From Burkholderiaceae bacterium (GTDB lineage Bacteria; Pseudomonadota; Gammaproteobacteria; Burkholderiales; Burkholderiaceae_C): a stretch of DNA of 33,075 nt. Of the stretch, positions 3,713 to 32,984 are shown in pieces; positions within the stretch are counted from its first letter, which is position 1, and each line of letters begins with the position of its first letter. Made by a program: the position numbers and the translations under genes. The stretch lies in the NCBI GenBank assembly GCA_031277295.1, contig JAITMV010000224.1, forward strand, positions 1-33,075. Reading direction: 5' to 3'. The notes below the pieces were generated by a model. The model did not search any database. It had not been told where the DNA came from and saw only the letters and a program-made list of their open reading frames with translations.

Positions 3713-4099
3713 ATGAATCTGATCCAGACCCTCGAACAAGAGGAAATCCAGCGCCTCGGCAAAAAAATCCCCGAGTTCGCTCCCGGCGACACGGTAATCG
3801 TCAGCGTCAACGTCGTCGAAGGCACCCGCAAGCGCGTGCAGGCCTACGAAGGCGTGGTCATCGCCAAGCGCAACCGGGGGCTGAACAGCGGTTTCACGGT
3901 GCGTAAAATTTCCAGCGGCGAAGGCGTGGAACGCACTTTCCAGACTTACAGCCCGCTAATTGCTGGCATCGAGGTCAAGCGTCGTGGCGACGTGCGCCGT
4001 GCCAAGCTGTATTACCTGCGTGAGCGTTCCGGCAAGTCCGCCCGCATCAAGGAAAAATTGCCCAGCCGGGTCAACAAGCAGGCCGTCGGCGCGGCGTAA
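3713..4099 (+). CDS. rplS: 50S ribosomal protein L19
   Basis: 128 aa, [67 protein letters not shown]. Confidence 0.97.
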
Positions 4100-4132
4100 C
4101 TGGGGCGCGGCCTTTCCGGTCGATGCCCCTAA

Positions 4133-4294
4133 GGCAACGCCTCACCCAGTCCCATGCGGCGAGCGCATCCTCGCTTTGGGCGGTCTGCTTCGTTGCAAAT
4201 GCTCGCCATACCGCCAGGTATTGCTGCGCTTTGCGCCTCGCAGCCCATCCCAAACCGAGGCGCGCTCATCCGCAGGGACTTATTCAGCGTCGCC
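4133..4294. mobile_element. MITE-like long-hairpin element, copy 1, flanked by CTAA direct repeats (4129-4132, 4295-4298)
   Basis: Ends GGCAACGCCTCACCCAGTCCC and (reverse complement) GGCGACGCTGAATAAGTCCC. The whole element is an imperfect inverted repeat with apex CCATACC-gcca-GGTATTG at the centre. A related copy lies at 32786-32950. Confidence 0.75.
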
Positions 4295-4297
4295 CTA

Positions 4298-4334
4298 ACC
4301 GCCTGTGGCGCTGGTCGCTCCAGGCGGTTTTGTT
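4298..4334 (+). terminator. Rho-independent terminator (rplS)
   Basis: ACCGCCTG...CAGGCGGT stem, ~15-nt loop, followed by TTTGTTTTGTCTT. Confidence 0.6.
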
Positions 4335-4352
4335 TTGTCTTGTGATCCGCTC

Positions 4353-5093
4353 ATGGTTTTCAAGCCGCTGTCCACACTGCCCAATTTCGACCCGCGCCGG
4401 GTGGAGGTGGCCGGCATTGATGCCCATTTGCCCGCCGTACCGTCCGAGCGCCTGACGCCCATCGCGCTGCGCCAACGTTTTGCCGCGCCACCCGCATGGC
4501 AGCCCGAATTGCGGCGTGAACCGCGGTTTTCCGACCGCAGCCCGGCAGCAGCGGCGGTACTGGTGCCGTTGATCCAGCGAACAGGCGGCCTGACCGTGTT
4601 ACTGACCGAGCGCACAGCGCACCTGTCGACTCACTCCGGCCAGGTCGCGTTTCCAGGCGGCAAGGTCGATCCGAGCGATGCCGATGCCGCCGCTGCCGCG
4701 CTACGCGAGACCGAAGAAGAAGTGGCGCTGCCGCGCCGCTTTGTCGAGGTAATCGGGCAACTGCCGACTTACGCCACCGGCACTCAGTTCATCGTTACCC
4801 CAATCGTGGCGCTGGTGCGGCCGGGCTTCGTGCTGCATCCCAACCCGGACGAAGTGGCGCACGCATTCGAGGTGCCACTGACCTTTTTGATGAATCCCGC
4901 GCACCATCGTCGCCACCGTGTCGAATTAAACGGTCAAGTGCGCGAGTGGTTTTCGATGCCCTACGTCGAACCGGCCCGCGCCGAAACAGCGGCAAACGAA
5001 TCGCCCCCCACGCCCGGCAGCGAAGTGGAACGCTTCATCTGGGGCGCTACCGCTGGCATGTTGCGCAACTTCTACCGCTTTCTGGCTGCGTAG
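4353..5093 (+). CDS. NUDIX hydrolase, CoA pyrophosphatase-like
   Basis: 246 aa from ATG 4353; Nudix box PGGKVDPSDADAAAAALRETEEEVAL. Confidence 0.9.
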   Translation: MVFKPLSTLPNFDPRRVEVAGIDAHLPAVPSERLTPIALRQRFAAPPAWQPELRREPRFSDRSPAAAAVLVPLIQRTGGLTVLLTERTAHLSTHSGQVAFPGGKVDPSDADAAAAALRETEEEVALPRRFVEVIGQLPTYATGTQFIVTPIVALVRPGFVLHPNPDEVAHAFEVPLTFLMNPAHHRRHRVELNGQVREWFSMPYVEPARAETAANESPPTPGSEVERFIWGATAGMLRNFYRFLAA

Positions 5094-10554: not shown

Positions 10555-13500
10555 CTAAAACTGAGTCGGGCAGGAGAACTCGTCCAATTCGCGCAGTCGA
10601 AAAGGATTTTGGACACTATTGGTGGTAACCTCGAAGACGATCTTCTTGCCTTGAATCGTGGCGGTAGCCAGAAATCTCTCAGGCGCCGTCCGGGAACTGA
10701 CGGACAGCTTGTCAAAGAAGCGGTGCAGCGCCCATGGACCTTCGGTTTTTATGGCAACACCGTTGAAGTCTTGTCCGGTAATTTCCAGCAAGACATAACT
10801 GAGTTTGTTCGGCCCAGGCCAAGTCAGGGATTGGGCAAGCTGAGGTCCGTGACTGTATCGCACGATGGAGCCATCGACATCGAGCGACATGCTTAATATT
10901 GTGGGGTCCATTTCCACCGGCTTGATCGCTAGCCGGACCGAAGGCATTCGATCACCGGTGCGGAAAAACACGTCTCTAATCACGGCGGCTGTCTTGAAGG
11001 ACGCCAAGGAACCGCTGCCTCCGGCCCATGAACCATCAATATTTTTCTTGAAGGTCCAAGTCGAGGTGTCAACGATGGAGGACAGGTTCTTGTGGAAGAA
11101 GTCGTCCATCAAGCCGTTTGGGGCGAAGAGGTGCGCGAAATCCTCCGGCGTGACATCCGAAGTTCCCGAGCGGCGCAAAGGGTAACGTCCGGCAATCGCG
11201 CGTCTGCAAAAGTCACCCACCGTCGAGTTTAGATTAGTACCTATTGAAGCCCGTACCAGATGAGTGGTCTGGCCAATACTTGACGCAGTGGCTTGATTAA
11301 TCATGCCCCGCAGGGGTTGCGGCAGCCGCGCCGCTTCGGCGCGAAGGCTAATCACCGATTCTTGCGAAGGCGGCCTATCGCCCGAGCGGATTGCGGCATT
11401 GGCGGCCACAAGCGTTCCGTAGTATTGATCGAGCATTTTCAACGTCGCGTCAATAGGCGCCTGCTGAGTCGGCGGGGCGCCGGGAGGCCCGACAAGCTGC
11501 CGGATCGGCTCAAAGCGATCATCAACGATGTGCTCCAATTTGCGATCTGGCGCGCCTATCGTCAGAGGCCCGACAACACGCTCAATTTCGTTCCTGGTGT
11601 TTTTGAGACGTTGTTTGGCGCGATCAAATAGGGAGCGTTGATCGCCGGTGAGGTTATCTCGCAGCAGTGTGGTTTCTTTGACGACCGCTTTCAAAAACAG
11701 GGGCAGGGGCGAGTCGGGAGCCGACAGCACGCGCATCTGCTGGATGGATGTTTGAAGCGAGTCACTGGGTATGAGCTGAATGTCGTTTAGGTATTGATCC
11801 CAGGTATCGGCGTACTCCCGCAAATAGACCATGCGGACCTCGCGCACCAGCTTGCCCCGTGTGGCCTCTTCTATCTGTGTCTTGTCGGTCTTGCCAGGCA
11901 GTCCAAGTACCCACGCCTCATCATCGGCCATTTCAGCGGAGGCTTTGCCGACCTCTTTGTCAAAAACGTCCCAATAGCCCTGGTAGGTAAAAAGCCCACT
12001 GACGCCGCGATTCAGGGGCAGTTTGCTGCGTCGCGTGAATATGTTGGCGGCTTGCGGGCCTGCTGCGTCCAGCAAGTTGAACGCGGGTAGATCCACGGTT
12101 TCAAGCTGCGCTCGTAAACGCGAGTAGACACGCTGCGCCGTGGTTAAGGTTTCAAGTTTTTTGCGCGCTTGCGCCAGCAAATCATCGTTGATCGGAAAAA
12201 CAGACGTAATGATGCGATCTTTGTTGATCAATTTCGCCAAATGCGTATCCATTCGCTCTAGCGTGTCGGCGTCGGCGTCCGGCATCAGATAACGGCGCGC
12301 GTCGGCAGACACCCATCGGCGTAAATATTCGGGGTCGTAGTGCTCTGCCTCATACAGCATGAGATAGCACTTCAAAGCTTCAAAGAGGTATTCAAGTGTT
12401 TCAACCGGAGGCCGCTGAACCTGGGATTCCAGACGTTTGGCGATGATCGGCAGCAGGCCGTCTTTGAGAAGATGCTCATAGGTGGCTTCGGCCGTTACGC
12501 TTACCTTGCTGCCCTGATATAGCCCGTAGCGGTACGGCAGATTCGGGTGCGCTCTGGGAAAAGCCGAGGTATCGCCCAGGTGCTGGGCTTGCTCAAGCAA
12601 GGCGATCATGCTTTCCATGTCGCCGTCGCCCTGGGGGTACGATGAGATCGCCGCAGAAAGCTTTTGCACGTCCTTGCCGACGTCGGCAAGATAGCTTTCG
12701 TTGTTTTTGTAGCTGATTATCCAGGCGCCAACGGCAATGGCCAGGACCAAGACGGAGGCGACATAGCCGGCGTAGGTGAGCCACTTGACCTTCCGCTCCC
12801 AACGGATATTACGCCCCGCTAAATGCGTTTCCTTAAATATCAGACTAGAAAAAAGATCGTAAAGGAAGTAGCTCTTGCCCTGATTGGGGACAATGCGGAA
12901 ATCGGCAGTCCGGCTGCTCGGGAAGTTGCGGCGCAGCGTGCTCAGGATACGGTCAAATGGAGTACCTTCCTGGGTTCCACTCGAAAAATAAAGGCCACGC
13001 AGCAACGGGCGCGCAACCTGTTTGGATTGACGAAATATGATTTCAATGGCTTCGCGAAGAATTGTTTGAAGACCGGCCAGTTGCTGAGGCAAGCCGTAGA
13101 TCGCGCTAAGTCGCCGCGATTCCGTTTCTTTGGCGAGTTGTTCATCTTGAAGCCGATACAGACGATCTTGCAGCAGCGCCCACTCGTGGTCAAAACTCTC
13201 GACAATATTCTGAGTACGATTTTCCTCCTGATATTTGAACGTGAACCCCCACACTTGTTTGCGTGGGTCGGTGCTGTAGCTGTCGAAAAATTCGCTGAAC
13301 CCAGCCAGCAAATCGGTCTTCGTAATCCAGAGGTATACAGGCAACTCGATGCCGAAGCTTTCTTGCAACTCGGCAAGCCGGGCCTTCAAGGTGTTGTAAT
13401 GCGCATCGCGCTCATCCCGGCTGAAAGCCAGCACATCGGCGATGCTAAGCGTCAAGATGACGCCATTGATGGGTTGCCTGGGGCGGTATTTTTTCAGCAG

Positions 13501-14187
13501 ACCAAGAAAACCACGCCATTCGGTTTTATCAACCTCTGCATGGCTGTCTTGCGTGGTGTAGCGGCCAGCGGTATCGATGATGACAGCTTCGTCGGTGATC
13601 CACCAGTCACAATTGCGTGTTCCGCCGACTCCCTTTAGTGCTGCGCGTCCGGTTATTTCTTCCAACGGAAAGTTGAGTCCGGAGTTGACCAGCGCGGTTG
13701 TTTTTCCGGAACCGGGAGCGCCGATGATGAGGTACCAAGGCAGCTCATAGATATAGCGACCGGATAAACGGTTAAAGCTGCCTTTGGAGGCGTGCAAACT
13801 CTTGATGCTGTTGAGCGCCTGGGCGAACCGCTCTTGTAGTTCTTCAACTTCACGGGGCTTTTGCGGCTTACCTGACGGATCAATTTTTTCCTTGACGGGG
13901 CGCGCGGCAATTTTGGCTAATTGATCAAGGAATTTGGCGTTCAGGTTCCTTCGGCGCCAAAAGCGCATGAGCCACCAAATCAGAAATAGTACGAAGACGG
14001 TGATGATGACATTCCAGCGGGCGCGCTCGCTTGCCAACGGCCTGGATTCTCCGTAAGCAAATAGCGGACCGGAAAACCAAATAAAAGCACAAAGCGCTAC
14101 CAGGCCCAACAGGACAAGCGTGGTCCGGTTGACGGCCAACCGGAAAAAGCTGGCAAAAAAGTACAGTATGCGGCGGAAAAAGTACAT
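10555..14187 (-). CDS. tssM: Type VI secretion system membrane subunit TssM (IcmF)
   Basis: 1210 aa, N-terminal TM segments, Walker A GAPGSGKTT, IcmF/VasK pattern throughout. Confidence 0.96.
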   Translation of the reverse strand: MYFFRRILYFFASFFRLAVNRTTLVLLGLVALCAFIWFSGPLFAYGESRPLASERARWNVIITVFVLFLIWWLMRFWRRRNLNAKFLDQLAKIAARPVKEKIDPSGKPQKPREVEELQERFAQALNSIKSLHASKGSFNRLSGRYIYELPWYLIIGAPGSGKTTALVNSGLNFPLEEITGRAALKGVGGTRNCDWWITDEAVIIDTAGRYTTQDSHAEVDKTEWRGFLGLLKKYRPRQPINGVILTLSIADVLAFSRDERDAHYNTLKARLAELQESFGIELPVYLWITKTDLLAGFSEFFDSYSTDPRKQVWGFTFKYQEENRTQNIVESFDHEWALLQDRLYRLQDEQLAKETESRRLSAIYGLPQQLAGLQTILREAIEIIFRQSKQVARPLLRGLYFSSGTQEGTPFDRILSTLRRNFPSSRTADFRIVPNQGKSYFLYDLFSSLIFKETHLAGRNIRWERKVKWLTYAGYVASVLVLAIAVGAWIISYKNNESYLADVGKDVQKLSAAISSYPQGDGDMESMIALLEQAQHLGDTSAFPRAHPNLPYRYGLYQGSKVSVTAEATYEHLLKDGLLPIIAKRLESQVQRPPVETLEYLFEALKCYLMLYEAEHYDPEYLRRWVSADARRYLMPDADADTLERMDTHLAKLINKDRIITSVFPINDDLLAQARKKLETLTTAQRVYSRLRAQLETVDLPAFNLLDAAGPQAANIFTRRSKLPLNRGVSGLFTYQGYWDVFDKEVGKASAEMADDEAWVLGLPGKTDKTQIEEATRGKLVREVRMVYLREYADTWDQYLNDIQLIPSDSLQTSIQQMRVLSAPDSPLPLFLKAVVKETTLLRDNLTGDQRSLFDRAKQRLKNTRNEIERVVGPLTIGAPDRKLEHIVDDRFEPIRQLVGPPGAPPTQQAPIDATLKMLDQYYGTLVAANAAIRSGDRPPSQESVISLRAEAARLPQPLRGMINQATASSIGQTTHLVRASIGTNLNSTVGDFCRRAIAGRYPLRRSGTSDVTPEDFAHLFAPNGLMDDFFHKNLSSIVDTSTWTFKKNIDGSWAGGSGSLASFKTAAVIRDVFFRTGDRMPSVRLAIKPVEMDPTILSMSLDVDGSIVRYSHGPQLAQSLTWPGPNKLSYVLLEITGQDFNGVAIKTEGPWALHRFFDKLSVSSRTAPERFLATATIQGKKIVFEVTTNSVQNPFRLRELDEFSCPTQF

Positions 14188-32785: not shown

Positions 32786-32950
32786 GGCAACGCCTTATCC
32801 AGTCCCATGCGGCGACAAGTATCCTAGATTTGAGCGGTCTTCGGAGAAAGCAAATGCTCGCAATACAGCCCAGTATTGCTGCGCTTTGCGCCTCGCATCC
32901 CATCCCAAACCCAGGCGCGTCCGCTCGCGCGGACTTAATTCAGCGTCGCC
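32786..32950. mobile_element. MITE-like long-hairpin element, copy 2
   Basis: GGCAACGCCTTATCCAGTCCCATGCGGCGA...CAATAC-agccca-GTATTG...GCGGACTTAATTCAGCGTCGCC; same architecture and many identical blocks as copy 1. Right flank TTAA, left flank TTGG (no clean TSD). Confidence 0.75.
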
Positions 32951-32984
32951 TTAACCCGAATGGCACTTACTTTAGCTGGCGAGC

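Follow-up and report, generated by a model that had tools for sequence, protein, structure and literature searches.

A MITE-like hairpin element of Burkholderiales combines one structured core with different transposon ends and shows strand-polarised constraint

The 162-bp hairpin that follows rplS in the window, as the whole 33,075-nucleotide stretch of Burkholderiaceae DNA analysed here is called, is an inserted, dispersed element that carries a core of approximately 43 nt under one of several kinds of transposon ends. This core is asymmetric, is common to all copies and covaries, and the pairing of the arms around it is asymmetric between the two strands. The element is best explained, with a probability of roughly 0.6, as a non-autonomous hairpin that is moved by transposases, has a shared core, and has one strand selected for folding, most probably as RNA. 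The finding stands and is in part ordinary, in that the element is a MITE; its modular core and strand-polarised constraint go beyond what was claimed in the first-pass annotation.

The complete hairpin, which has arm type A on both sides and the minus strand as its foldable strand, was located at positions 4133-4294, with the termini GGCAACGCC...GGCGTCGCC and the sequence CTAA on either side (4129-4132 and 4295-4298). It consists of a left outer arm (4133-4194), the terminal GGCAACGC of which matches IS5-family ends, the conserved structured core GCAAATGCTCGCCATACCGCCAGGTATTGCTGCGCTTTGCGCC on the plus strand (4195-4237; 43 nt, covariance model E = 2.4e-15, with covariation) and a right outer arm (4238-4294). 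The two halves of the element form an imperfect inverted repeat, with an alignment score of 25 (500 shuffles scored 2 at most); the first-pass description of a segment that is almost wholly one inverted repeat between CTAA flanks was therefore confirmed. Its placement of the apex at the exact centre did not stand; the core is asymmetric. The folding that it had proposed gave z-scores of -4.7 for the plus strand as DNA, -7.0 for the plus strand as RNA and -9.9 for the minus strand as RNA, so the element folds far better than shuffled sequence. The predicted RNA energy of this copy was -105.7 kcal/mol for the minus strand and -83.1 kcal/mol for the plus strand. It was also correct that no ORF fills the element: none is confined to the 162 bp, and the two that cross it (3960-4298 and 4123-4455) look incidental.

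A second, more decayed copy with arm type A is present on the minus strand at 32786-32954 (core at 32850-32892); its flanks differ (TTGG and TTAA). Also in the window is a type VI secretion gene, TssM/IcmF (10555-14187; TIGR03348).

The element sits between rplS, which encodes 50S ribosomal protein L19 (3713-4099, plus strand; TIGR01024), and the intrinsic terminator of rplS (4299-4332, plus strand), which is intact right after the insertion and which in relatives, without the element, follows rplS. The downstream neighbour is a Nudix or CoA pyrophosphatase-like gene (4305-5093, plus strand; NF007980), the true start of which is probably further in than 4305. The rplS gene was detected in 28 of the 29 genomes of the genus, including the element's own genome. 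Where relatives have the Nudix gene after rplS, the two are separated by a short spacer that holds the terminator (CCGCCTG..CAGGCGGTTTT or a variant of this sequence) and no element. These empty sites identify the 162-bp segment as an insertion.

BLAST against the element's own genome returned 44 matches, several of which were 80-98% identical over the full length, and a 22-bp piece of the core occurred 132 times at up to three mismatches (one occurrence for the reversed control). Together with the empty site in relatives, these multiple copies agree with the first-pass view of a mobile element. Being short, dispersed and without a transposase gene, and having terminal inverted repeats, a target duplication and empty sites, the element is MITE-like. 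When 86 copies in this genome were read with their flanks, the central 45-50 bp or so were found to be common, and the outer arms to be of several unrelated types.

Several individual loci showed additional features. Just to the left of the core, a short spot between GC and GCAAAT differed in both length and sequence among the copies of this genome (GTT, GAAA, GCAA or GCCACA) in constant surroundings, and in two copies (L087 and L091) a second, small hairpin of approximately 45 bp was inserted in the apical stem of the core. One copy (L055, approximately 1460-1620, in genome G013) lies inside a tRNA gene of a large tRNA cluster; at this site ARAGORN lists a tRNA-Cys before and a tRNA-His after the copy, and no intact tRNA. 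At locus L057 (G000:C279) a broken transposase gene adjoins a long CRISPR-like array with the repeat GTTTCAATCCACGCGCCCACGCGGAGCGCGAC.

The number of copies with identical flanking 4-mers was compared with the number expected if left and right flanks were paired at random. In the element's own genome, 3 of 14 arm A copies had identical 4-mers (1.6 expected), and a 4-bp duplication was unsupported by this genome alone. It was accepted after the test was applied to the 110 copies of the named genomes, in which the 4-mers matched in 8 of 9 copies with arm A (expected, 2.6) and in 9 of 15 copies with arm B (expected, 1.5). Since these values exceed the random-pair expectation, arm types A and B do have a genuine 4-bp YTAR duplication. 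The CTAA duplication proposed in the first-pass annotation is thus upheld by the two flanks and by the named genomes; its derivation from this copy and genome alone is not. The loss of matching flanks in the element's own genome may be due to misassembly, to decay or to copies having recombined with one another.

Structural constraint acts on the core. Among 33 distinct cores, a 14-pair stem had 95.7% of its cells paired, with eight pairs changed on both sides; structures slid along the same sequences were 31-42% paired and no shuffle reached the observed values. In the named genomes, the search pattern left pairing free at three independently variable pairs, which were complementary in 110, 109 and 109 of the 110 copies, the second with one G.T. 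The unpaired positions (T; CTC / TGCG) were nearly constant; the core covaries around a near-constant internal loop. No match to an Rfam covariance model was obtained in the window, nor at the core in four further loci (L258, L343, L287 and L283).

Some ten types of outer arm were distinguished, IS5-like and IS630 ends among them. Types A to F are represented by GGCAACGCTGAACAAGTCCC, GGAACCTCTGAACAAATC, GAACGTGTTCACGATC, GAGCCTGTGAATAAATTC, GTACTCCGTTCCACCAAAAC and GTGTCCTGAGTTAGAARTTCG, respectively. IS5-family elements carried by Cupriavidus and Paraburkholderia plasmids (L184 and L187; NF033581) have ends that match arm A; they share with it the terminal GGCAACGCTGAACAAG and the YTAR target and are closer to it than is the IS5 of Escherichia coli. 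On the Paraburkholderia plasmid, an annotated IS5 transposase gene has GGCAATGCTGAACAAG at either end, and its product scored 321.6 bits to the IS5-family model NF033581. Unlike these insertion sequences, the element has no transposase gene, and its interior is not derived from them, the core being absent from both at up to five mismatches. Arm F matches both ends (CTAGTGTCCTGAGTTAGAAATTCG) of an annotated Acidovorax IS630 element (L188; NF033545), a likeness that extends to the arms and not to the core. An IS5-family fragment in the element's own genome (L056) has an end that resembles arm C, and no convincing insertion sequence partner for arms D and E was found on the plasmids searched. In the element's own genome, a draft of 279 contigs with frequent breaks at these repeats, there was no match to the PF05598 transposase model, and none of three PF01609 matches had arm A ends.

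The first-pass assignment to the IS5 type therefore holds for the outer arms, the ends of which match that family, but not for the core, which is also found under IS630 and other ends. Judging by the matching ends, transposition would be carried out in trans by IS5 and IS630 transposases. A single core haplotype occurred with arms B, C, E, F, G and I, which makes an independent origin of each arm family unlikely. Six elements in the draft genome (L034, L041, L044, L089, L090 and L102) are hybrids with different arm types on the left and right; in the named genomes hybrids were rare (2 of 110 copies). Because the hybrids of the draft genome may be assembly chimeras, rather than products of recombination, they were kept as weak evidence of arm exchange.

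The core is largely a feature of the order. A strict 43-mer pattern gave a misleading distribution, finding the element's own genome only in two samples of approximately 300, and the covariance model was used in its place. This model detected the core in 26 of 150 Burkholderiales genomes, representing 21 of 92 genera, and in 5 of 200 genomes in a phylum-wide sample, with only two, weak, matches outside the order. Matches listed for a degenerate core pattern included Acidovorax, Variovorax, Ramlibacter, Extensimonas, Simplicispira, Comamonas, Verminephrobacter, Roseateles, Rubrivivax, Massilia, Pseudoduganella, Achromobacter, Castellaniella, Thiomonas and others. There was no core match in phages, and there was one in viral contigs, at a contig edge. 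An AT-rich locus from outside the class but in the same phylum (L399, genome G367) combines A/B-like ends (GGAAGCTCTGAACAAGTC) with a diverged core, and is possibly an ancient or transferred member.

Comparison of the left and right arms of 177 copies revealed 795 A.C mismatches and 81 G.T mismatches on the core strand. Because A.C on the core strand is G.U on the opposite (minus) strand, it is the minus strand that keeps its pairing. The excess of A.C over G.T was seen in 166 elements and the reverse in 5; by arm cluster the ratio was 9 to 2, and in a diverged set of 21 elements there were 60 A.C and 20 G.T cells. The copies are related by descent, so that these counts overstate independence and p-values have no literal meaning; support comes mainly from the arm clusters agreeing with one another. 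Mean predicted RNA energies were -101.7 kcal/mol for the minus and -83.5 kcal/mol for the plus strand, the minus strand being approximately 18 kcal/mol more stable. In one arm group (44 sequences) the minus strand formed 40 pairs, 25 of them with double changes. These patterns of mutation suggest that one strand has been kept foldable, most likely as RNA.

An ordinary IS5-derived MITE, made of joined IS5 ends and with copies that are similar through descent and recombination, would require no structural selection. Ends that match IS5, a YTAR duplication, an intergenic site and many decayed copies all fit such an origin. However, it is disfavoured, and was judged unlikely, since elements with IS630 and other ends carry the same core, the core covaries around its internal loop, and the strand-polarised wobble of the arms tracks pairing status.

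It is also possible, but improbable, that the selected molecule is minus-strand single-stranded DNA, the folded strand being read by a recombinase or a Y1-type transposase. A folded single strand is the acting form of integron attC sites and REP hairpins, and attC served as a working analogy only. G.T pairs stabilise DNA hairpins too (predicted DNA energies for the window copy were -53.7 kcal/mol for the minus and -43.4 kcal/mol for the plus strand), recombination of a folded strand could explain the exchange of arms seen in hybrids, and no promoter was seen in the element when the arms were read. In contrast, the ends and duplications are of the type produced by DDE transposases, which act on double-stranded DNA. 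Of the 143 unpaired plus-strand positions, 128 were T or C, and the mostly purine residues at these positions of the minus strand are typical of RNA; furthermore, hybrids are rare in the named genomes.

A bias in mutation without selection, for example through deamination of cytosines on one strand, is a far less credible source of the asymmetry. The largest excess was indeed of plus-strand G>A changes (141, compared to 31 C>T). At paired sites the plus-strand counts were 104 G>A, 16 C>T, 35 T>C and 12 A>G, whereas at unpaired sites there were 46 C>T changes at 57 C sites. Since C>T was common when unpaired and rare when paired, the asymmetry follows pairing rather than a plain mutation bias, and T>C also exceeded A>G at paired sites. 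In addition, the polarity is intrinsic to the element and the insertion sites vary. Finally, a conserved 3' untranslated structure of rplS, the ancestral state that the first-pass annotation had named as the alternative, is suggested by the position directly after rplS but was rejected as next to impossible, because the rplS loci of relatives lack the element but keep the terminator and the Nudix gene, and because copies are spread over the whole genome.

According to the favoured explanation, a transposase-moved hairpin with one strand selected for folding, the outer arms would be transposon ends, here IS5-like, that are recognised by a DDE transposase supplied in trans, which would cut the element out and paste it into YTAR sites. 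The arms enclose a conserved structured core common to hairpin elements with IS630-like and several other ends. Selection would keep the strand opposite GCAAAT[S]CTCG foldable over its full length, with G.U pairs allowed and with purine-rich internal loops. The relevant molecule would most probably be an RNA copied from the foldable strand, less probably single-stranded DNA, and such an RNA might protect or process the element transcript or aid the element's own spread.

Several results count against this explanation. No promoter was seen when the arms were read. Between co-directional genes the core strand was sense in ratios of 30:7 or 32:7 (gene orientations from a home-made gene caller), and the foldable strand was thus mostly antisense, so that ordinary read-through would not make the foldable RNA. 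No transposase with arm A was detected in the draft of the element's own genome, and the core stems had no bias between G.T and A.C (37 compared to 39). In two other sets the orientation of the core strand was 17:10, which was not significant. Part of the contribution of arm D to the orientation bias may stem from its directional TGA target, and the bias as a whole may indicate that a strong hairpin in mRNA is selected against. A role of the core as a sense motif in read-through mRNA, which the orientation bias had suggested, was rejected; the wobble direction points to the opposite strand.

CORE-SINEs of eukaryotes combine a conserved core with exchangeable, partner-specific ends; the present element is similar in its core and swappable ends but has DNA-transposon ends and bacterial hosts, and no relationship is implied. 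A MITE has reportedly been found in Polaromonas JS666. Passages of two papers (PMC2229807, PMC10969869) describe the Correia/NEMIS, RUP and ERIC elements as non-coding, mostly intergenic, high-copy MITEs of 100-200 bp with terminal inverted repeats and a stable hairpin in the transcript, and the ends of RUP as matching those of IS630-Spn1. The present element is like them in size, non-coding nature, terminal repeats, location and copy number. Compared with what those passages describe, it differs in having one covarying core under the ends of different insertion sequence families across an order, and one strand selectively kept foldable. Burkholderiales-1, a candidate structured RNA listed with no Rfam accession (Weinberg 2010, PMC2864571), is likewise an order-restricted structured motif of unknown role. 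Either Burkholderiales-1 or the JS666 MITE could be the same thing as the present element; the literature searched yielded no description of the element and no match to the core sequence.

Whether the core represents an order-wide family of mobile structured RNAs, which acquires unrelated DDE ends and yields a foldable RNA with a cellular or selfish role, is a more tentative proposal, to which we give somewhat less than even odds. Bacterial MITEs are usually viewed as the decayed debris of insertion sequences. If the repeated exchange of transposase partners by the core and the selection on one strand are true, MITEs would be maintained as RNAs (or single-stranded DNAs) themselves, and the function of MITE hairpins could be addressed directly. 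Testing for strand-polarised wobble is simple, and further families, such as Correia, ERIC and RUP, are open to the same test.
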